Source: Prosthecomicrobium pneumaticum
GTDB lineage: Bacteria > Pseudomonadota > Alphaproteobacteria > Rhizobiales > Kaistiaceae
Direction: 5' to 3'
Length of the DNA stretch: 64,000 nt
Assembly (NCBI RefSeq): GCF_014199915.1
Contig: NZ_JACHOO010000002.1
Coordinates: 536,756-600,755, forward strand
In this document: piece by piece, positions 711 through 19,470 of the stretch
How the letters are laid out: each line of letters begins with the position of its first letter
Numbering within the stretch: position 1 is the first letter of the stretch
Notes under the pieces: model-generated
Told to the model about the DNA's origin: nothing
The model's input: the letters and a program-made list of their open reading frames with translations, nothing else
The model's database searches: none
Program-made: the position numbers and the translations under genes

Positions 711-1730
711 ATGCGCATTCTGAAGGTCAACACCTACGCCCCCGATACGCCGCTCTATCAGGCCTTCGGTCCCGACGTCACCTTCGACATCCATCGGGCC
801 GGCGCCGAGGCCGTCGCGCCGCCTTCCGCCGAGCGCTGTCGCGCCGCCGATGCGGTGATCAACTGCGCCGCGACCCTGCCGCTCGGCATGCCGCCCTCGG
901 CCTTCGAGAACTGCAGGATCGTGGTGCGGGAGGGCGTCGGCTACGACAATCTCGACCTCGAAGGCTTCGGCGCGCGCGGCGTGCCGGTCTGCAACGTGCC
1001 GGATTACGGCACGACCGAGGTCGCCGACCATGCGATCGCGCTGATGCTCGCTTTCGCCCGCGGCACGGCGACCTATCAGGAGGCGGTGCGCGACGATCCG
1101 GCCGGCTGGAACTTCGCCGGCGCGCCGCTCGTCCGCCGGCTGCGCGGGGCAACCTTCGCCGTGCTCGGCCTCGGCCGGATCGGCCTCGCCGCGGCCCGGC
1201 GGGCCGCCGCCTTCGACATGAAGGTGATCTTCTACGATCCCTACCTTCCGAACGGCGCGGAACTCGCCGTCGGCTATGAGCGGGTTCGCTCGCTCGACGA
1301 GGCGATGGCGCGCGCCGACGTGCTCTCCGTCCACACCCCGCTCAACGACGAGACGCGCGGCATGGTCGGCGCGGCGGCGCTCGCCAAGGCGAAGCCCGGC
1401 CTCATCGTCGTCAACACGGCGCGCGGCCCGATCGTCGACCTCGATGCGCTGACCGAGGCGCTCCGGAGCGGCCGCGTCGCCGGCGCCGGCCTCGACGTGC
1501 TGCCGAAGGAGCCGGCCGATCCCGACCATGCGCTCATCCGCGCCTGGCGGGCCCGCGAGGCCTGGACGGAAGGCCGGCTCGTCGTCACGCCGCACGCCGC
1601 CTTCTACAGCCCCTCGGCGCTCGAGGACATGCAGCGCAAGGCGATCGAGGTGATCGTCACCTATCTGCGCGAGGGCGTGCTGATGAACTGCGTCAACCGC
1701 GAACATCTGCGGGCGCGCACGCCGGCCTGA
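711..1730 (+). CDS. D-isomer-specific 2-hydroxyacid dehydrogenase, CtBP-like (339 aa)
   Basis: An NAD-dependent oxidoreductase of the D-2-hydroxyacid dehydrogenase superfamily, acting in the cytoplasm on a 2-hydroxyacid/2-oxoacid pair. Visible features are the split catalytic domain, the central Rossmann motif VLGLGRIG near residue 150, NTARGP carrying the substrate-binding Arg, the segment AGAGLDVLPKEP with the catalytic Glu, and TPHAAFYS with the catalytic His near residue 296. Length and motif order resemble CtBP-like and phosphoglycerate dehydrogenase relatives; the substrate cannot be read from sequence. The ATG at 711 follows a weak GCGAGG. It is divergent from an FCD regulator. Confidence 0.9.
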   Translation: MRILKVNTYAPDTPLYQAFGPDVTFDIHRAGAEAVAPPSAERCRAADAVINCAATLPLGMPPSAFENCRIVVREGVGYDNLDLEGFGARGVPVCNVPDYGTTEVADHAIALMLAFARGTATYQEAVRDDPAGWNFAGAPLVRRLRGATFAVLGLGRIGLAAARRAAAFDMKVIFYDPYLPNGAELAVGYERVRSLDEAMARADVLSVHTPLNDETRGMVGAAALAKAKPGLIVVNTARGPIVDLDALTEALRSGRVAGAGLDVLPKEPADPDHALIRAWRAREAWTEGRLVVTPHAAFYSPSALEDMQRKAIEVIVTYLREGVLMNCVNREHLRARTPA

Positions 1731-4840: not shown

Positions 4841-6031
4841 TCAGTCCGGCCAGGCGAGCGCGGCGGCGAGACCGGCCGTGCGGTATTCGGCATGGGAGAG
4901 ACGGCGGCCGTCGCCCTGCGCACGCGCCGCCTCGATCTCCGCGCGGATGGCGGTCGCCACCAGCTCCGCTTCCGCCGCATCGAGATTGCACGGATCGAGA
5001 TGGACGATGCCCGTCTCGACGAGATCGGCGCGGACGCGGATCGAGGGCGTGCGGGCCGCGAGCCGGTCTGCGAGTTCCCAGGCGAACAGCCCCGCCGCTT
5101 CGCCGACGCCGATCTCGACGCGGTCGATCGGATTGCCGGTCCAGTCCGGCTGGCGGCGGAGCGTCAGGCCGGGCGCATCGGCGAGCGCCGCGAGCCATGC
5201 CGCGACGATCGCCGTCTCGCGAGCCCGCGCCGCGGCGTGATCGCGCCGGCCCCAGGCTTCGAGCGCGGCGATCGCGCCGACGATGCCCTCCTTGCCGACC
5301 TTCATCGCCCGACCGATGCCGCGGCTCTGCAGATAGGCGGCACGGACGAGGTCCTTGCGGCCGGCGACGATGCCGGCGGTCGGCCCGCCGAGGAATTTGT
5401 GGGCGCTCCAGATGACGAGATCGGCTCCGGCAGCGATCGCGCCGGTGAGATCGTATTCGCTCGCCATGTCGACGATCACCGGCACGCCCTTCGCACGGCA
5501 GAGCGCGACGAAGGTCGGCAGATCGGGCTGGCCGGTCGGCACGACGTGATGCGAAACGACGAAGAGCCCGGCCGCCGTGCGCTCCGACAGGGCGGCGGCG
5601 ACATGGAAAGGCTGCACGTCGAAGGCGGTTCCGGCGGAAACGACCATGGCCCCGGAGAGCCGGATCATCTGGCCGACCGGCGCGCCGAAATTGACGAGAT
5701 GGCCGGCCGGCACGACGACCTCGTCGCGCAGCCCGCCGGTGTCGGGCAGGCGCTCGATCGCGGCCGGATCGGCGCCGGTCATCGCGGCGGCGACGCCGAG
5801 CGTCATCGCCGAGGCGCTCGAGGACGTGACGAAACCGGCTTCCGCACCCGTCGCTGCGGCGATCACGGCGCTCGCCTTCCGCTGCAGGTCGGCGATGTCG
5901 ACGAACTCCGGCAACACCGACGCGACCGCGGCGACGGCCTCGGGCACGACGCGCGAGGCGCCGATCACGGTCATCGTGCCGGAGGCGTTGATGACGGGGG
6001 CAAGCCCGAGCGCGTCGTGGATCGCCGCCAT
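4841..6031 (-). CDS. SelA-like PLP-dependent enzyme (396 aa)
   Basis: A PLP-dependent fold-type I protein of the SelA-like group. That group includes selenocysteine synthase and D-glucosaminate-6-phosphate ammonia-lyase (DgaE). It opens with APVINASGTMTVIGAS, typical of SelA-like lyases, and has the putative PLP Lys in VIWSAHKFLGGPTAGIV at about residue 220 after a VDMASEYDL segment. It lacks the tRNA-binding N-terminal domain of true SelA and sits 3 bp behind an SDR in a sugar transporter operon. A lyase or ammonia-lyase on an amino sugar acid or related metabolite is therefore the best inference. Start ATG at 6031. Confidence 0.82.
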   Translation of the reverse strand: MAAIHDALGLAPVINASGTMTVIGASRVVPEAVAAVASVLPEFVDIADLQRKASAVIAAATGAEAGFVTSSSASAMTLGVAAAMTGADPAAIERLPDTGGLRDEVVVPAGHLVNFGAPVGQMIRLSGAMVVSAGTAFDVQPFHVAAALSERTAAGLFVVSHHVVPTGQPDLPTFVALCRAKGVPVIVDMASEYDLTGAIAAGADLVIWSAHKFLGGPTAGIVAGRKDLVRAAYLQSRGIGRAMKVGKEGIVGAIAALEAWGRRDHAAARARETAIVAAWLAALADAPGLTLRRQPDWTGNPIDRVEIGVGEAAGLFAWELADRLAARTPSIRVRADLVETGIVHLDPCNLDAAEAELVATAIRAEIEAARAQGDGRRLSHAEYRTAGLAAALAWPD

Positions 6032-11100: not shown

Positions 11101-11132
11101 AGAGGACGCAGAGCACGGCCGTCTCCCCGAAC

Positions 11133-11519
11133 ACCCGTCACCCCGGCCTCCGTGCCGGGGTCCATAATCGTGTCGCGTGGCGAAGACGCACCACGACGCC
11201 CTATCGATCTGCCGTTCCTCCGGCGCGTGCGGTACCACGCCCCCCGCGCCGTCATCCCGGGCGAGGCGAAGCCGGGACCTGCGACCCATCAGGCAGACCA
11301 TATGGAACCGCACGGCTCGATGGACCCAGGCCTTCGCCGGGGTGGCGAATGGAAAGGTCGCGCCGAGACGCCGCACCTCACGATTATGGATGCCGGCACG
11401 GAGGCCGGCATGACGGGGGGTGGGGCTGTTCGCGAGGCGGCGGAGGGGCGAGCGGCGAGAGGGCGGGCTGGACGTGGCAGGAGGCTTCGAGGACGCAGAG
11501 CACGGGTGCCATCGAGAGC
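11133..11519. repeat. Array unit 1 (387 bp)
   Basis: The left arm is at 11137-11172 and the right arm at 11379-11414. The arms are inverted copies matching at 32 of 36 positions. The four differences are two paired changes that keep each arm's own hairpin intact. The unit also contains TCATCCCGGGCGAGGCGAAG at 11252, a motif found again near 44 kb. Confidence 0.85.
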
Positions 11520-11921
11520 ACCCGTCACCCCGGCCTCCGTGCCGGGGTCCATAATCGTGTCGCGTGGCGAAGACGCACCACGACGCCCTATCGATCTGCC
11601 GTTCCTCCGGCGCGTGCGGCACCACGCCCCCCGCGCCGTCATCCCGGGCGAGGCGAAGCCGGGACCTGCGACCCATCAGGCAGACCACATGGAACCGCTC
11701 GGCTCGATGGACCCCGGCCTTCGCCGGGGTGGCGAATGGAAAGGTCGCGCCGAGACGCCGCACCTCACGATTATGGATGCCGGCACGGAGGCCGGCATGC
11801 CGGGGGTTGGGGCTGTTCGCGAGGCGGCGAAGGGGCGAGCGGCGAGAGGGCGGGCTGGACGTGGCAGGACGCTACGTGGCAGGACGCTTCGAGGACGCAG
11901 AGCATGGGTGCCATCGAGAGC
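11520..11921. repeat. Array unit 2 (402 bp)
   Basis: Nearly identical to unit 1 through the hairpin part. Its spacer is longer because a 15-base piece, GTGGCAGGACGCTAC, is repeated in tandem (about 11863-11893). It carries a perfect CCCCGGC/GCCGGGG hairpin near 11712. Confidence 0.85.
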
Positions 11922-12331
11922 ACCCGTCGCCCCGGCCTCCGTGCCGGGGTCCATAATCGTGTCGCGTGGCGAAGACGCACCACGACGCCCTATCGATCTG
12001 CCGTTCCTCCGACGTGTGCGACACCACGCCCCCCGCGCCGTCATCCCGGGCGAGGCGGGGCGGAGGCCCGGTATCCATCCCGCGGGGAGAACACGGCGAG
12101 GCCGTCCGGCGCCGCGGGGCCCGCCTTTCCGAGGTGATGATGGATGGAGAGCGCCGTGCCAGGACGCCAAAGGACACGATTATGGATGCCGGCACGGAGG
12201 CCGGCATGACGGGGGGTGGGGGCTGTTCGCGAGGCGGCGGAGGGGCGAGCGGCGAGAGGGCGGGCTGGACGTGGCAGGACGCTACGTGGCAGGACGCTTC
12301 GAGGACGCAGAGCATGGGTGCCATCGAGAGC
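11922..12331. repeat. Array unit 3 with replaced centre (410 bp)
   Basis: Both arms and the first hairpins are kept. After the CCCGGGCGAGGCG motif (about 12050) the sequence switches to an unrelated ~120-bp stretch before rejoining the right arm near 12176. The spacer carries the same 15-base duplication as unit 2. Unit-internal recombination or insertion of another REP variant would explain this. Confidence 0.8.
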
Positions 12332-12617
12332 GCCCGTCACCCCGGCCTCCGTGCCGGGGTCCATAATCGTGTCGCGTGGCGAAGACGCACCACGACGCCC
12401 TATCGATCTGCCGTTCCTCCGGCGCGTGCGGCACCACGCCCACCCCCCGCGCCGTCATCCCGGGCGAGGCGAAGCCGGGACCTGCGACCCGTCAGGCAGA
12501 CCATATGGAACCGCACGGCTCGATGGACCCCGGCCTTCGCCGGGGTGGCGAATGGAAAGGTCGCGCCGAGACGCCGCACCTCACGATTATGGATGCCGGC
12601 ACGGAGGCCGGCATGAC
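12332..12617. repeat. Array unit 4, truncated after the right arm (286 bp)
   Basis: Matches unit 2 through the right arm and then diverges: the G-rich spacer is absent and unique sequence leads to the SDR gene at 12732. The end at the right arm marks the hairpin part, arm to arm, as the likely element core. Confidence 0.8.
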
Positions 12618-12731
12618 GGGTGGAGAGGGCCGATCGGAGGAGCCGCCAGGACGAACTCCGGGAACGGCAGCTCCCCCGCAGGGGCGCAGCGAAACGCGCC
12701 CGGCCGCGCCGCCATTCCGCCGCGCCATCCG

Positions 12732-13508
12732 TCACATCATGAAGCCGGCCGTCCAGCCGCCGTCGACCATCATCAAATGGCCCGTCATGTAGGAGTTTTC
12801 CGGCGCGGCGAGGAAGAGGATCGCCTCGGCGATCTCCTCGACATCCGCCGGGCGGCCGAGGGGGACGTGGTCGAGGAACGCGGCCATCTGCGCCCGGAAG
12901 GTGCCGTCGTCACCGTAGAAGAGCTTCTTCGTGCCCTCGGTCAGCACCGAGCCCGGCGCGAGCGCGTTGACGAGGATGCCCTTCGGACCGAGCTCGAGCG
13001 CCATCGAACGCGTCAGGTGGATGACGCCCGCCTTCGCCGCGACGAAGGCGCTCTGCAGCCGCATCGCCGTGACGCCGACCACCGAGGCGATGTTGACGAT
13101 GCGGCCGGCGCCCTGGCGGATCATCGGCTGCACCGCCGCGCGGCTCACCACATAGAGCCCGTCGAGATCGATCGAGACGACGCGGTGCCATTCCTCCTTC
13201 GGGAAGGCGTCGATGTCGACGCGGTCCTTGAAGGTGTTGACGCCGGCATTGTTGACGAGCACGTCGAGCCGGCCATAGCGGGCGAGCGTCGCCGCGACGG
13301 CGCGTTCGGCCGCGTCCGGGTCGCGCACATCGAGGGCGAGGCCGAGCGCATCGGGGAGCGAGGCCGCCACCGCCTCGGCGCCCGCCGCGTCGATGTCGGC
13401 GACCACCACCGCGGCACCGTTCTCGGCGAGCCGCTTCACCGTCGCCCGGCCGATGCCGCCGGCGCCGCCGGTCACGAAGACGACGCGGCCGTTGAGATCG
13501 CAGCGCAT
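12732..13508 (-). CDS. SDR-family protein with catalytic Tyr replaced by Phe (258 aa)
   Basis: SDR fold with TGGAGGIG cofactor motif at residues 14-21, VADIDAAG (Asp, suggesting NAD), NNAGVN, Ser in VNIASVVG, and the C-terminal SYMTGHLMMVDGGW. The active-site YxxxK reads FVAAK: the codon is TTC, so the general acid/base Tyr is missing while Ser and Lys remain. I chose ATG 13508 because GGGAGG precedes it; the upstream in-frame extension is not SDR-like. It is divergent from the GntR/UTRA regulator. It may bind NAD without the standard chemistry, or use another residue. Confidence 0.85.
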   Translation of the reverse strand: MRCDLNGRVVFVTGGAGGIGRATVKRLAENGAAVVVADIDAAGAEAVAASLPDALGLALDVRDPDAAERAVAATLARYGRLDVLVNNAGVNTFKDRVDIDAFPKEEWHRVVSIDLDGLYVVSRAAVQPMIRQGAGRIVNIASVVGVTAMRLQSAFVAAKAGVIHLTRSMALELGPKGILVNALAPGSVLTEGTKKLFYGDDGTFRAQMAAFLDHVPLGRPADVEEIAEAILFLAAPENSYMTGHLMMVDGGWTAGFMM

Positions 13509-13560
13509 CAAAACCTCCCAGATTCGACCAAGGGCGGGCATTTCGGTGCAGCGACAAACG

Positions 13561-13570
13561 TTATAATATC
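13561..13570. promoter_or_regulatory. TATAAT-containing element shared with the E1 promoter
   Basis: TTATAATATC lies in the 119-bp gap between the divergent SDR and GntR genes. TTATAATAGC, 9 of 10 identical, lies upstream of the E1 fusion gene at 19529. It may be a -10 element and/or operator for the GntR protein. Confidence 0.35.
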
Positions 13571-13627
13571 TGCCTTCACTCCGGAATCGGGCGCCCGCCG
13601 CCCGGCCTCCAGCCAAGGACAGACCGC

Positions 13628-14407
13628 TTGCTCGACGACGGAACCAAGGACGGCCCGCTCGACGCCCTTTCCGGCGAACCGCTCGACCGGCGGCACGGCC
13701 CGCTCTACCAGCAGCTCGCCGACATCCTGCGGCAGCAGATCGCCGACGGCATCTTCCCGATCGGCTCGGCGCTGCCGAAGGAGGCCGAGCTCGCCGATCG
13801 TTTCGCGATCAGCCTGATCACGGTGCGCCGCAGCCTGCGCGAGCTGGAGGACGAAGGGCTGATCCGCAAGCGCGCCGCGAAGCCCGCCGTCGTCGCCGCC
13901 TCCGAGCCGCTGATGCGGCCGAGCATCGACTTCCACAGCCTCGCCGCGATCGCCGAATCGACCCGCCACCGCAAGCTGCGCATCCGCTCCTATGGCCGTG
14001 AGGTCTCGGCCGCCGCCGCCGACGCCTTCGGCCTCGAGCCCGGCGAGAGCGTCTATTGCCTGCGGGCCGTGCTGCATGTCGACGGCCAGGCGGTCAGCCA
14101 GCACACCATCTATTTTCCGCCGACGATCGGCAGCCGGCTGAAGAAGGCCGATTTCGACGATGTCGTGGTGTTCCGCTCGGTGCAGCGTCAGCTCGGCATC
14201 CGGCTGTCCGGCGCCCGGGTGACGCTGAAGGCGGAGATCGCCGACGCCGACCTCGCCCACGAACTCAACTATCCGGAGGGCGCGCCGGTGCTGGTCGCTC
14301 AGATGCTCTATCGCTCGGTCGACGGCGAGCCGATCGAGCTGTCGATCGCCCGGAACCGCGCCGACACCTTCAGCGTGACCTACGACGCGCCGAACGACCT
14401 GGTCTAG
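13628..14407 (+). CDS. GntR/HutC-family (UTRA domain) transcriptional regulator (259 aa)
   Basis: The winged helix at residues about 27-92 (YQQLADILRQQIADGIFPIGSALPKEAELADRF and SLITVRRSLRELEDEGL) is followed by a UTRA effector domain (about 115-255) containing PGESVYCLRAVLHVDGQAVSQHTIYFPP. The reading frame starts at TTG 13628, the first plausible start in a frame with no better ATG; start confidence is moderate. It lies between a divergent SDR and the minus-strand operon ending at 14550. It probably regulates both, through the shared TTATAATA element. The ligand is unknown. Confidence 0.88.
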   Translation: MLDDGTKDGPLDALSGEPLDRRHGPLYQQLADILRQQIADGIFPIGSALPKEAELADRFAISLITVRRSLRELEDEGLIRKRAAKPAVVAASEPLMRPSIDFHSLAAIAESTRHRKLRIRSYGREVSAAAADAFGLEPGESVYCLRAVLHVDGQAVSQHTIYFPPTIGSRLKKADFDDVVVFRSVQRQLGIRLSGARVTLKAEIADADLAHELNYPEGAPVLVAQMLYRSVDGEPIELSIARNRADTFSVTYDAPNDLV

Positions 14408-14549: not shown

Positions 14550-15176
14550 TCAGAAATTCCGCGCATAGCCCGCTGCCCAGCCGCCGTCGACATTGAGCGT
14601 GTGGCCGGTCATGTAGCCGTTCTGCGGATCGGCGAGGAAGAGCGCCGCGGCCGTGATCTCGGAGAGGGTCGCCGGACGGCGAAGGCCGGTATGGCCGAGG
14701 AAACGGGCGTTCGCCGGGTCCGCCCCCTCCCCCGCCGCATAGGCGCCGACCGCGACCGCATTCACCCGCACCGCGGGACCGCGTTCCATCGCGAGGGTGC
14801 GGGTGAGCGCGACGAGCCCGGCCTGCGCCGCCGAAAAGGCGGCCGCGCCGCGGACCGGCACGAGGCCGGCGGACGAGACGATGAGGATCGCCCGGGCGAG
14901 ATGCGGCGCGAGGCGGCGGATCGCGCCGGCGAAGGCGGTGAACTCCGCCATGTCGCCGTCATCCTCCGCCGGCAGACCGTCCGCGCCGCAGCTCGCGGCG
15001 AGGAGGAGGACGGGCGTGCCGTGCGCCGCGACCGCCGCGGCGAGCGCCGCTTCGTCCGCCGATGCGGGGCGCACGATGCGGGCGCCGTTCGCGGCGAGTG
15101 CGGCCTCGACGGCCGTCGCGACCGTGCCGGGCGTGCCGACGAGGAAAGCGAGGCGGCCGTCGAGATCGATCTTCAC
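14550..15176 (-). CDS. Degenerate, short SDR-like protein lacking catalytic residues (208 aa)
   Basis: The C-terminus (NGYMTGHTLNVDGGWAAGYARNF) and the order of elements mark an SDR paralogue of the 12732 gene. It is about 40-50 residues short of the family. The glycine motif is VGTPGTVA instead of TGxxxGxG, NNAG is replaced by AASCGADG, and YxxxK reads FSAAQ, so both Tyr and Lys are gone. The GTG at 15176 follows GGAGC, and the gene starts 13 bp after the malate-type dehydrogenase. The frame is open and the codon usage normal, so it looks like a kept pseudoenzyme and not a decaying gene. Confidence 0.75.
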   Translation of the reverse strand: MKIDLDGRLAFLVGTPGTVATAVEAALAANGARIVRPASADEAALAAAVAAHGTPVLLLAASCGADGLPAEDDGDMAEFTAFAGAIRRLAPHLARAILIVSSAGLVPVRGAAAFSAAQAGLVALTRTLAMERGPAVRVNAVAVGAYAAGEGADPANARFLGHTGLRRPATLSEITAAALFLADPQNGYMTGHTLNVDGGWAAGYARNF

Positions 15177-15189
15177 AGCATGGGCTCCG

Positions 15190-16269
15190 TCAGGTCCAGG
15201 ACTGGGGAACGGCCTTGCCGTAGCGGCCCGCGGCGGCCTCGAGCGCCGCCCAGGTCACGGCGTCGACCGGGATGCCCGCCTCGGCGCGGCGGGCGGCTTC
15301 CGCCTTCTCGACATCGCCCGGCGCCATCACCGTCTGGCCCGGATGGGCGGGCTGGCGGCGCAGATCGGCGAGGAAAGCGCCGACGCGCGCATCGAAGGCG
15401 GCGAAGGCCTGGAAGATCGACGGATTCATCACGAGGAAGAAATGGCCGATCGGGATGGTCTTCGAATAATCGCTGCCGGCGAGCGGATCGATCGTCGCGC
15501 CATGGCCCATGCCCGTGAAGGCCGAGCAGAGAATGTCGACCATCGAGGCGAGGCCGGCGCCCTTGTAGCCGAAATCGGCGCCGCCGAGCGGCCGCACCGC
15601 GGTCGCGGCGTGCGGATCGCGCGTCGGATGGCCCTCGGCGTCGACCGCCACTTCGGCCGGCAGCGGCGTGCCGGTGGCGCGGCGCAGGAAGATGCGGTTG
15701 TAGGGGATGGCGCTCGTCGCCATGTCGAGCAGCATCGGCTCCTCGCCCGGCGCCGGCACGGCGAAGGCGAGCGGATTGGTGCCGAAGAAGGGCTTCTTGC
15801 CGCCGAACGGCACCACGGCCGGATCGGCATGGGTCATGGAGATGGCCGCGAAGCCTTGCCGCGCCGCGGCGAGCGCGTAGACGCCCGAGGCGCCGTGATG
15901 CGAGGAGCGGCCGACGGTGATCGCCGCGACGCCCGCCTCCTTCGCGAGCGCGATGCCTTCCTCGATCGCCCGGTAGCTCGCCAGATGGCCGAAGCCGTTA
16001 TCGGCATCGACATGGCCGACCGCCGCCGCCTTCTTCTCGAAGCCGAGCACCGGCCGGCCGTTGATACGGCCGCCCTCGATCATCTGCAGATACCACGGCA
16101 CGAGCCGGACGCCGTGCGTGTCGACACCGCGCGATGAGGCATCGACGACCGAGCGGGCAACCGCGGCAGCGCTCGGCGCATCGGCCCCTGCCGCGCCGAG
16201 CAGCGCCTCGACATATTCCTCGAGCGCCGCCTTCGCCGTGCGCACGCCGTTCAACTGTTCGATCGCCAT
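15190..16269 (-). CDS. Malate/L-lactate dehydrogenase family oxidoreductase, Ldh_2 (359 aa)
   Basis: A cytoplasmic NAD(P)-dependent dehydrogenase of the non-Rossmann Ldh_2 family (malate, ureidoglycolate, 2,3-diketogulonate and related enzymes). Visible motifs are SSRGVDTHGVRLVPWYLQMI, the catalytic-type VGRSSHHGASGVYAL, FFGTNPLAFAVPAPGEEPMLLDMATSA and GYKGAGLASMVDILCSAFTG. The ATG at 16269 follows GGGAGAG. The gene lies 25 bp after the E2-like gene. A dehydrogenase that makes a 2-oxoacid right behind a 2-oxoacid dehydrogenase suggests sequential oxidation of a 2-hydroxyacid and its 2-oxoacid. Confidence 0.9.
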   Translation of the reverse strand: MAIEQLNGVRTAKAALEEYVEALLGAAGADAPSAAAVARSVVDASSRGVDTHGVRLVPWYLQMIEGGRINGRPVLGFEKKAAAVGHVDADNGFGHLASYRAIEEGIALAKEAGVAAITVGRSSHHGASGVYALAAARQGFAAISMTHADPAVVPFGGKKPFFGTNPLAFAVPAPGEEPMLLDMATSAIPYNRIFLRRATGTPLPAEVAVDAEGHPTRDPHAATAVRPLGGADFGYKGAGLASMVDILCSAFTGMGHGATIDPLAGSDYSKTIPIGHFFLVMNPSIFQAFAAFDARVGAFLADLRRQPAHPGQTVMAPGDVEKAEAARRAEAGIPVDAVTWAALEAAAGRYGKAVPQSWT

Positions 16270-16294: not shown

Positions 16295-17023
16295 TCAGAC
16301 GAGGAGACGCAGGGGCGTCTCGACCAGCGCCTTGAACGCCGCGAGATACGCCGCCGCGTCGCCGTCGTCGAGACGGTCGGGATCGTAACTGAGGAGACAA
16401 TCGGCGATTCCGGCGGCATCCGCGCCGCCGACGACCAGCCGGGCGACCGCCCCGGCCGGGATCGGCGCCGCGACGGGCCGCAGGCCGGCCCGGCCGATGA
16501 AGGAGAGCGCGAGCGTCGCCACGCCCGGCTCGGAGGCCGCGCGGCGGGCGGCGATGCCGCCAAGCGACAGGCCGGCGAGCCGCCCGAGGACACGGCCGCC
16601 GTCGCGCGCGCCTCCCGGGAGGCCGATCGCACCATCGAGCGCCGGAGCCTCGGCGAGCGCCACCGCAGCGGCCTTGAGGCAGACGTCCTCGCGGCCGACA
16701 CCGGGGGCGAGATCGCCGAGCCGCGCGAGGAGGTCGGCGACGGCCGAAAAGTCGATCGCCACCGCGAGCGCGGCGGGCACCGGCACGGCCGCCGCGGCCG
16801 GGACAGCCGGAGCTTCGGCTGGGACCGGAGCCGGCGCGGCGGCGGGCGGCGGCGCCGGCTGGACCGGGGCAGGCACGAAACCGATCACGTCGGCGGCGAC
16901 GACGCGGCCGTTCGGGCCGGAGCCGGCGAGCGCGGCGAGCGGCACGCCCCGCTCGCGGGCGAGCCGGCGGGCATAGGGCGTGGCGAGAATGCGCCCGGCG
17001 GGCGCGGCGGCGAGAGCGCTCAC
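16295..17023 (-). CDS. Miniature E2-like protein: E3-binding domain plus degenerate acyltransferase domain (242 aa)
   Basis: The start is GTG 17023 behind AAGGAG, 20 bp after the E1 fusion gene. Residues about 8-46 are a peripheral subunit-binding (E3-binding) domain with [21 protein letters not shown] and [12 protein letters not shown] Pro/Ala linker follows (about 50-90), then a shrunken 2-oxoacid dehydrogenase acyltransferase-like domain ending in [13 protein letters not shown]. Canonical E2 proteins have SYDHRxxDG there, so the catalytic His is absent, and the PDGLVVPVIR region is missing. There is no lipoyl domain here; that domain sits on E1. It may act as a scaffold that recruits E3. 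No E3 gene is in the window. Confidence 0.75.
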
Positions 17024-17043: not shown

Positions 17044-19470
17044 TCAGTGGACGGCGCCGATGCGGCCGCCCATCGGCACCACCGTGCCCTCGCGCAGCTC
17101 GATCGCCAGCCGGCCGGCGACCGGCGCCTCGATCTCGACGACCGCCTTGTCGGTCTCGATCTCGGCGACGAGCTCGCCCGCCTTCACCGTATCGCCCTCG
17201 GCCTTCGCCCAGCGCAGAATGGTGCCTTCGCTCACCGTCAGATCGCCGAACGGCATGGTGATCGGCTCGCCGCCCGCCGCCGCGCTCGACAGCGCCTCGG
17301 CGGGCACGACCGGTGCGGCGGGCGCGAGCGCGGGCGGAACCGGCGCAGCGACCGGGGACGGCGCGGCGGTTGCGGGCACCGCGGCGGCGAGCGCCGGATG
17401 GCGCCAGTGCCAGGGAACCGGGGCGCGACCGGCGAGCACCGACTTCGCCGCGGCGACCACCTTCGCGGCGTCGACGAGCATGGTCCGTTCGAGCGCGGGG
17501 GCGAGCGGATGGCTGATCGGCTCGCTGTGCAGCCGGCCGACCGGCGCGTCGAGATCGTCGAAGGCGAGTTCGTTCATCGCCTGGCCGAGCTCGGCGCCGA
17601 CGCCGCACATCGCCCAGCCCTCGTCGACGATCAGCAGCCGGTGCGTCTTCGCGACGCTCTCGGCGACCGTCTTCACGTCGAGCGGCATGATGGTGCGCAG
17701 GTCGATGACCTCGGCCTCGATGCCCTCCTTGGCGAGGGCCTCGGCCGCTTCGAGCGCGCGGTGGACGAGTTGGCCGGCCGACGCGATGGTGAGGTCGCGA
17801 CCCTCCCGCGCGATGCGGGCGACGCCGAAGGGCACCAGATGCTCGCCGTCCGGCACCTCGCCCTTGGTGGCGAAGAGTGCCTTCATCTCGAGCATCAACA
17901 CCGGATCGGAACCGCGCAGCGCCGTCTTCATCAGGCCCTTGGCGTCGGCCGGTGTCGACGGCAGGCAGACGATGAGGCCGGGAATGTGCGCCCAGACCGG
18001 ATGATAGGCGCCGGAATGATGCGGGCCGGCGCTGCGGACCGCGCCGGCTCCGACGCGCACCACCATCGGCGCGTTCATCTGGCCGTTCGACATGTAGCGC
18101 AGCTTCGCCGCCTGGAGCACGATCTGGCCGGCCGCCTCGAACATGAAATCGGCGAACATCAGATCGGCGATGGTGCGCGCGCCCGTCGCCGAGGCGCCGA
18201 CCGCAGCACCGGTGAAGCCCTGCTCGGAGATCGGCGTATCGATCATCCGTTCGGGGCCGAATTCGGCAAAGAGGTTCTTGGTATGCGCAAAGGTGCCGCC
18301 GCGCTCGCCCGTGCCCTCGCCGAAATACATGATCGCCGCGTCGCGCCGCATCTCCTCGGCGATGCCGTCGCGCACCGCGTCGAGCCAGCTCGTCACCGGC
18401 CCGCCGGTCCTCGGCCGATGAGCGAGCGCGGCCGCCGGATTGAGCGGCTCGGCGAAGACGTGATGGAAACTGGTCGCCGGATCGGGCTCCGGCGAGCGGC
18501 GGGCGAATTCGAGCGCCTCCTGAACGACGTTCTCGATACGCCCGTCGATCGCATCCAGTTCGCCGGCCGCGGCCGCCTCGAACTGGTCGACGAGCCGCTC
18601 GCGGAAGGTCTTGATCGGATCGCGCGCCGCCCAGGCGTCGACCTCCTCCTGGGTGCGGTAGGTGCCGACCACCGGGTCGCCCTCGTGATGGCCGACGGTG
18701 CGATAGGTCTTCGCCTCGATCAGGGTCGGCCCCTCGCCGCGGCGGGCGCGGTTGACGGCGTCGCGCGTCACCTCCCAGACGGCGAGCACGTCATTGCCGT
18801 CGACGGCGACGCCGGGAATGCCATAGGCGGCGGCGCGGCTGGCGATCTCGGGATTGAGGGTCGCCGTCTTCAAGGGCGTCGCCGTCGCGTAGAGATTGTT
18901 CTCGCAGACGAAGACGGCGGGCGCCCGCTGGATGCCGGCGAAGTTCAGCGATTCGTGGAAGCCGGCATGGTTGGTCGCGCCATCGCCGAAGAAGGCGACG
19001 CCGATGTCGTCCCGGCCCTGGCGGCGGGCGCTCATGCCGACGCCGACGGCGTGGCTGATGCCGGCCGCGACGATGCCATTGGTGCCGAACAGCCCGACCG
19101 AACGGTCGTAGAGATGCATCGTGCCGCCGCGGCCGCCGCAGCAGCCGTCGCGCTTGCCGAACAGCTCCGCCATCAGGATGTTGGGGTCCATGCCCTTGGC
19201 GAGCGCATGGCCGTGGCCGCGGTGGGTGGAGGTGACCCAGTCGGTCGACCGCAGATGGGCGCAGACGCCGACTGCCGTCGCCTCCTCGCCGATATAAAGA
19301 TGCAGGAAGCCGGGGGTCTCGCCCTTGCGGCAAGCGATCTGCGCGACGCTCTCGAAACGGCGCAGCAGCACCATCTTCTCGTAGAGCGCCAGGAGCTGGG
19401 GAATCTCGAGATTGGGGACGGGACGGAGCGATCGGCCGCTGGCTGCGGCGCGGGAGGAGGTTCGGCTCAT
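17044..19470 (-). CDS. Fused E1-alpha / E1-beta / lipoyl-domain 2-oxoacid dehydrogenase (808 aa)
   Basis: One chain holds three complex parts. Residues about 24-335 are E1-alpha, with [16 protein letters not shown] and VCENN forming the thiamine-diphosphate motif. Residues about 375-690 are E1-beta ([53 protein letters not shown]). An Ala/Pro linker leads to a C-terminal lipoyl domain with Lys775 in [14 protein letters not shown]. It would decarboxylate a 2-oxoacid and reductively acylate its own lipoyl arm. Alpha/beta fusions are known in this family; the extra lipoyl domain is unusual. The substrate could be pyruvate, acetoin or a branched acid. It heads the operon with the E2-like, Ldh_2 and SDR-like genes. 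Confidence 0.9.

Follow-up and report, generated by a model that had tools for sequence, protein, structure and literature searches.

The E3-binding protein (E3BP, or PDHX, with its fungal form PX) is the described protein closest in kind to the one reported here. The available part of one account (PMC10156792) describes E3BP for animals and fungi: the mammalian protein has the full E2 domain topology, lipoyl-PSBD-CAT, and that account states that it is not known why it is catalytically inactive; fungal PX is inactive and its CAT-like part is reduced. In the same part of that account, a missing catalytic His is used as the sign of E3BP inactivity. A second related system comes from Corynebacterium where, according to the available part of PMC10415282, PDH and ODH share components in an OdhA/AceF hybrid complex. 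In a literature search at the level of titles and openings of abstracts, with few subscription journals covered, we found no bacterial E3BP and no report of the short E2-like family described below.

In the window, i.e. the whole stretch of 64,000 nucleotides that was analysed, we identified a short E2-like gene whose family appears to be a bacterial equivalent of E3BP, the non-catalytic protein found in fungi and animals. Like E3BP/PDHX and PX, as far as that part of PMC10156792 describes them, the short protein is derived from E2 and combines a peripheral subunit-binding (E3-binding) domain, or PSBD, with a CAT-homologous domain that lacks the catalytic His, and as in PX the CAT-like part is reduced; the lipoyl-PSBD-CAT topology is not found in it. 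It differs from E3BP in being bacterial, in having no lipoyl domain of its own and in being linked to a fused E1-lipoyl gene in a catabolic cluster. Furthermore, E3BP is defined by selective binding of E3 and by its incorporation in, or docking to, an E2 core, whereas the short form is likened to it from its sequence and a monomer model, and the bacterial form probably arose independently of the eukaryotic one. With canonical E2s (dihydrolipoyl acyltransferases) it shares the PSBD and the CAT fold, but it has no DHRxxDG motif, has a CAT domain ~44 residues shorter, scores below the cut-off of the acyltransferase family and has its lipoyl domain on E1. A bacterial family that keeps the PSBD and the CAT fold but has lost the site would be a tractable system in which to study the purpose of a dead E2.

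The short gene and its surroundings

The short gene (16295..17023, minus strand) encodes a protein of 242 aa that consists of a PSBD, an Ala/Pro linker and a shortened CAT-like domain without the catalytic His. It starts with a GTG at 17023, has AAGGAG directly 5' of it, stops at 16295 and lies 20 bp downstream of the stop of the E1-fusion gene on the minus strand. The PSBD (aa 12-46; 16886..16990, minus strand) matched PF02817 (E3_binding) at 5.2e-15, and the CAT-like domain (aa 80-242; 16298..16786, minus strand) was delimited from an AlphaFold2 (AF2) model and its CAT fold. The C-terminal motif of the protein reads [13 protein letters not shown], in which, by profile-profile alignment, DPDRLDDG (aa 214-221; 16361..16384, minus strand) stands where E2s have DHRxxDG. 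The match to PF00198 (acyltransferase) reached 11 bits against a cut-off of 23, so that with neither the site nor the cut-off attained the protein does not qualify, judged by its sequence, as an acyltransferase (E2, PF00198). No lipoyl domain was matched by Pfam in the short protein; one was found on the E1 fusion instead.

This upstream gene (17044..19470, minus strand) encodes a fused E1alpha-E1beta-lipoyl protein of 808 aa (PF00676, PF02779, PF02780, PF00364), which among solved structures is closest to E1 subunits of pyruvate dehydrogenase and other 2-oxoacid dehydrogenases. Its predicted lipoyl lysine is K775 in [14 protein letters not shown] (codon 17146..17148, minus strand), and a Lys is conserved at this predicted site in 16/16 aligned E1 fusions. 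Downstream of the short gene follow an Ldh_2-family (malate/lactate-type) dehydrogenase (15190..16269, minus strand; PF02615, 8.5e-100) and the short-chain dehydrogenase SDR1 (14550..15176, minus strand; PF13561, 1.2e-18), then a divergent GntR/UTRA regulator (13628..14407, plus strand; PF07702, PF00392) and a second short-chain dehydrogenase, SDR2 (12732..13616, minus strand; PF13561, 3.9e-59). The left part of the window holds a D-2-hydroxyacid dehydrogenase (711..1730, plus strand; PF02826, 4.5e-52), related to the one located after the E1 fusion in Mesorhizobium and Devosia, as well as a sugar-type ABC transporter, a ROK protein, an aldose epimerase and a DgaE-like lyase. The last of these, a DgaE-family PLP ammonia-lyase-like gene of the sugar cluster at 4841-6031 (TIGR01437, 287 bits, under its cut-off), had no relative by tblastn in 56 related loci. 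Between the ROK gene and SDR2 there is a tandem array (11102-12620) of 3.8 copies of a 387-bp unit with 87% matches.

Relatives of the neighbouring genes were counted by tblastn (E 1e-15, with matches below 50% query coverage dropped except for the short E2) in 56 E1-fusion loci, namely the 54 named loci described below plus L190 and L191. Relatives of GntR were found in 51 loci, of SDR2 in 52, of MR/MLE in 40, of the ABC ATPase in 38 and of the SMP-30 lactonase in 12, counts that admit distant relatives (from ~26% identity for MR/MLE and 35% for SDR2), may miss weak ones (the short E2 was counted in 40/56 loci, and a profile found more) and are not independent because many of the loci come from closely related Mesorhizobium. 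Relatives of 2-hydroxyacid dehydrogenases, D-type or Ldh_2, occurred in 47/56 loci (D-type 45, Ldh_2 6) and of TRAP DctP in 3/56, and the content of the cluster varies; selected neighbours include HpcH/HpaI aldolases (L128, L097), transketolase halves (L144, L128) and an MR/MLE enzyme (L144). From their predicted products, the gene surroundings read as a sugar or sugar-acid catabolic cluster, and the relatives of the E1 fusion together with the adjoining 2-hydroxyacid dehydrogenases suggest that its substrate is a 2-oxo acid.

Loss of the catalytic histidine and the predicted fold

Profile-profile alignment (hhalign) of 52 short forms with the 18 E2s of our alignment A5 (99.6%, E 1.6e-24) placed SYDPDRLDD on SVDHRVVDG. 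The first-pass annotation had described an E2-like protein that lacks the acyltransferase His and the PDGLVVPVIR region, and in both respects it was right: a Pro stands in place of the His, and no PDGL-type motif is present in the window's short protein. It had also assumed one inserted residue in the motif, which has to be given up, since the two motifs align gap-free and the His is therefore replaced, with no residue inserted.

The 52 aligned short forms, of which 51 are distinct (L133 and L135 being identical), come from Kaistia, Bauldia, Mesorhizobium, Devosia and others. None has a His in the catalytic column, which holds Ala in 33, Thr in 8, Glu in 5, Pro in 4 and Ser in 2, and both frame-broken copies described below (L124, L137) likewise lack it. 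DPDRLDDG as such is thus not kept among the orthologues, as this column varies. Judging from the aligned sequences, the loss of the His is a property of the whole group and not a private mutation of the window gene. An orthologue with a His was not found among the 52 short forms. A counter-example may be L147, where a full-length E2 next to a related E1 fusion carries the His; it is a candidate orthologue of the short form. As an unfiltered control we used 43 loci fetched as ordinary E2 matches, of which 41 gave a frame with a PSBD motif: 40 of these 41 frames have DHR near their end, and the single one without it (L048) stops within the CAT domain. A DHR-type motif is also present in all 18 E2s of A5, which are not an independent control because our script had selected them by that motif.

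AlphaFold2, run on the 52-row alignment, predicted the short protein as a monomer with a mean pLDDT of 89. Using Foldseek and VIA-align 2, residues 80-242 of the model superposed on E2 catalytic domains; the best 32 of 50 entries had Z of 20.1-22.0, mostly at ~2 A over 161-164 residues. The matched part spans ~206-210 residues in solved CAT domains and 163 in the short protein, i.e. ~44 fewer, from which it follows that the CAT domain of the short protein is shortened. The human E3BP model 6h60 is among the fold matches (Z 19.6) and active E2s score as high, so that the fold alone cannot separate a dead from an active protein.

Possible role of the short protein and fate of the acyl group

Our preferred interpretation, held with moderate confidence, is that the short protein is a non-catalytic E2 paralogue that acts like an E3-binding protein, with acyl transfer borrowed in trans. 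The protein would presumably be inactive, its PSBD would recruit E3, the E1 fusion or both, and the reduced CAT domain would serve for assembly or docking. Bacterial PSBDs are described as unselective between E1 and E3 in the available part of PMC10156792. Reductive acylation would occur within one chain, E1alpha, E1beta and the lipoyl domain being together, which leaves E3 and an acyl acceptor missing; since the upstream chain carries the lipoyl domain, the short subunit needs none of its own. Once loaded on the lipoyl arm of the E1 chain, the acyl group would most likely reach CoA in trans through the E2 of the housekeeping pyruvate dehydrogenase, and the short protein may perhaps dock the E1-lipoyl module to the PDH E2 core. 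Indeed, a C-terminal E-x-P-L-R-L is conserved in the short forms to at least 90% in each column, and the available part of PMC10415282 describes the corresponding region as docking the facing trimer in canonical E2 cores; given the CAT fold and this conserved end, it is plausible that the protein oligomerises or docks to a genuine E2 core.

The window's own genome encodes two CAT domains above the PF00198 cut-off (C1 and C5) and two E3s above cut-off. By their ends, we take C1 to be of the pyruvate type and C5 of the succinyl type. Contig C8 holds a frame (L003:10-1647) that ends in a stand-alone CAT-like protein with FDHRVLDG and a PF00198 score of 22 bits, just under the cut-off; no E3_binding match was found there. 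With these CAT domains and the stand-alone DHRVLDG protein in the genome, acyl transfer in trans is possible, and the latter means that the PDH E2 is not the sole candidate donor of such transfer. The corynebacterial OdhA/AceF complex, as far as it is described in that part of PMC10415282, shows, as a precedent, that a dehydrogenase can obtain the parts it lacks from the PDH E2. In that complex the lipoyl domain is the borrowed part and an active CAT is fused to E1; in the window the lipoyl domain sits on E1, and no active CAT belonging to it lies nearby.

The E1 fusion is accompanied by different partners. In the window's family, 16/28 genomes have an E1 fusion and 14 of those 16 the short form; from their places on the contigs, L107 and L103 seem to belong to the two genomes that lack it. 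When a species-level genome collection was scanned with the E1-fusion end, 54 named loci were obtained (Kaistia, Bauldia, Mesorhizobium, Devosia, a Reyranella, Rhodospirillales and others). The short form is present in one frame over most of the protein at 46 of the 54, in several genera, and is split across two frames at two, L124:9126-10261 (Mesorhizobium huakuii NBRC 15243) and L137:9440-10233 (M. loti CJ3sym), the split being either a sequencing error or a true loss. At one locus (L147) a full-length PSBD-CAT protein with SVDHRVVDG and without a lipoyl domain takes its place. Five loci (L103, L107, L127, L136 and L146) have no short form in place. The contig of L136 ends soon after E1, and a fragment of the short form lies elsewhere in its assembly; in the draft or metagenome assemblies of the other four we found matches of PSBD length or nothing, and no short form elsewhere. 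L107 has its genes in the same order as the window, except that E1 is followed by Ldh_2 and the short gene is cleanly absent. With the short form missing in 2/16 family genomes and at 5/54 loci (one of them a contig end), it seems to be dispensable somewhere, which speaks against the role that we prefer.

A class-wide search with the E1 end matched 9/385 genomes, which include, besides the window's own, five E1 fusions judged by neighbourhood; the other three matches are weak and have internal stops. One of the five (L188) is the same place as L147, and the E2 at L189 shares 83% identity with the L147 protein across 206 residues, after which the contig ends before the motif; thus the active-type E2 is seen whole in one place only. 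At L190 the E2-like match is partial and lies where the contig ends, at L191 there is no E2-like match within 16 kb, and L192 is cut off by the contig end. Hence this type of E1 fusion occurs with an active-type E2, with the short form or with no E2 in place.

This coexistence fits transfer in trans, and it also fits a possible but unlikely alternative in which no acyltransferase is needed at all, the acyl group being released from the lipoyl arm through hydrolysis or through attack by its own hydroxyl, in a lactonisation of a polyhydroxy-acyl thioester, with the E2 site having been lost through disuse and the PSBD remaining to hold E3. The range of states beside related E1 fusions, from a full PSBD-CAT protein with His through short and frame-broken forms to no E2, is in line with this explanation, as is the apparent role of the cluster in the use of sugars or sugar acids, with relatives of SMP-30 lactonases (12/56), of MR/MLE enzymes (40/56) and of 2-hydroxyacid dehydrogenases (47/56) and, in L128 and L097, HpcH/HpaI aldolase genes. 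Lactonases, however, also take part in ordinary sugar oxidation, the same loss is accounted for by transfer in trans, and the E1 fusion is nearest to pyruvate-type E1. Moreover, no rooted tree supports the direction of change: the tree of E1 fusions (56 rows, with L133 and L149 left out because of a too short E1) had a very long outgroup branch and open basal forks and gave no root, so that the order from active to dead to absent rests on the near-universal DHR in E2s and not on the tree. The stronger form of this alternative, in which a one-chain E1-lipoyl enzyme works with E3 alone, with a dead E2 relic or nothing holding it, and releases a free acid or lactone instead of acyl-CoA, seems to us rather unlikely. 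If true, absence of the acyltransferase would make this a lipoyl-dependent 2-oxoacid dehydrogenase that gave up acyltransferase chemistry. E1 fusions with an active-type, a dead-looking or no E2 would let one study how acyl-lipoyl is unloaded when no dedicated acyltransferase is present.

Constraint on the short gene and its wider distribution

We compared selection on the short gene and on the E1 fusion by pairwise dN/dS within groups (Nei-Gojobori, with a dS filter). The median for the short gene was 0.257 in Mesorhizobium (253/253 pairs), 0.175 in the Devosia-like group (27/28 pairs after the dS filter) and 0.340 in Kaistia (10/10 pairs), against 0.073, 0.112 and 0.164 for the E1 fusion, i.e. 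1.6 to 3.5 times the E1 values in the same groups. All 253 Mesorhizobium pairs of the short gene were below 0.48, and by part of the protein the Mesorhizobium medians were 0.108 for the PSBD, 0.331 for the linker and 0.277 for the CAT-like domain. The window gene itself gave 0.33-0.45 against its relatives at L097, L098, L099 and L100, at a dS of 0.9-1.5, which is near saturation. The short gene is under purifying selection and is maintained, though less tightly than E1.

These values bear out the view of the first-pass annotation that the protein is maintained, dN/dS being well below 1 (group medians 0.18-0.34) and not near 1 in the comparisons of the window gene either. Its overall reading, a maintained protein with a lost site, holds to that extent and overlooked that the loss extends to the whole group, that the lipoyl domain is present on the E1 protein and that E1 fusions of this type are found beside an active-type E2, the short form or no E2 in place. 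Among the roles that it had considered, a purely structural one is the best supported, as a putative assignment, with the PSBD the most constrained part, the CAT fold kept and the motif gone.

Weaker constraint than on E1 and the two frame-broken copies count against the adaptor-like role that we prefer, and they would agree with an improbable explanation in which the short form is a decaying remnant of little function, heading for loss. Its absence at four loci with downstream sequence, and from the rest of those draft assemblies, would also be expected of a remnant, as would the clean gap between E1 and Ldh_2 in the otherwise unchanged gene order of L107. Against this, one frame over most of the protein is retained at 46/54 loci in several genera, the dN/dS medians are low, with all 253 Mesorhizobium pairs below 0.48 and the PSBD at 0.11, and the fold is predicted at a pLDDT of 89. 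A pseudogene as the main explanation is rejected by the intact frames at these 46 loci and the low dN/dS.

It is very improbable that the short protein is still an acyltransferase, acting through another residue or a relocated His. Arg195 is conserved in 52/52 short forms, the Asp that precedes the lost His (Asp214) is kept in 51/52, and 10/52 have a His two columns ahead of the lost one, all of which could speak for retained activity; yet the window protein has a Tyr in this alternative column, no His near the motif is common to the family, there is no PDGL motif and the domain is strongly shortened. That a mis-assembled or mis-framed gene hides a normal E2, for which nothing speaks but the odd motif, has practically no chance of being true and is refuted by orthologues of the same form in many independent genomes.

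Profile searches with the whole short protein matched 37/385 genomes of the class, where all matches except that in the window's own genome stop within the first 60% of the model and are PSBDs of other E2s, and 16/397 genomes of the order, which added one full member (G703, L077) as well as G564 and G761. With a profile of the CAT-like domain only, full-length matches at E <1e-30 were obtained in 14/397 genomes of the order, and eight further genomes gave weak matches, which in seven cases covered at most the C-terminal two thirds. A plasmid search with the short protein gave no match.

Two further observations concern single loci. The short E2 at L133, on a contig labelled as a Burkholderiales MAG, is identical to that of the Devosia sp. 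66-14 MAG (L135), both being titled SCNpilot, and the L133 contig is probably misbinned. In G564, the E2 at L078:1096-2178 (also in L095), which matched the whole-protein profile and is absent from the matches of the CAT-only profile, has its own lipoyl domain and PSBD and a short CAT-like end with SVDPKAVT replacing DHR. It adjoins separate E1alpha and E1beta genes and, by its sequence, may be an independent case of DHR loss.
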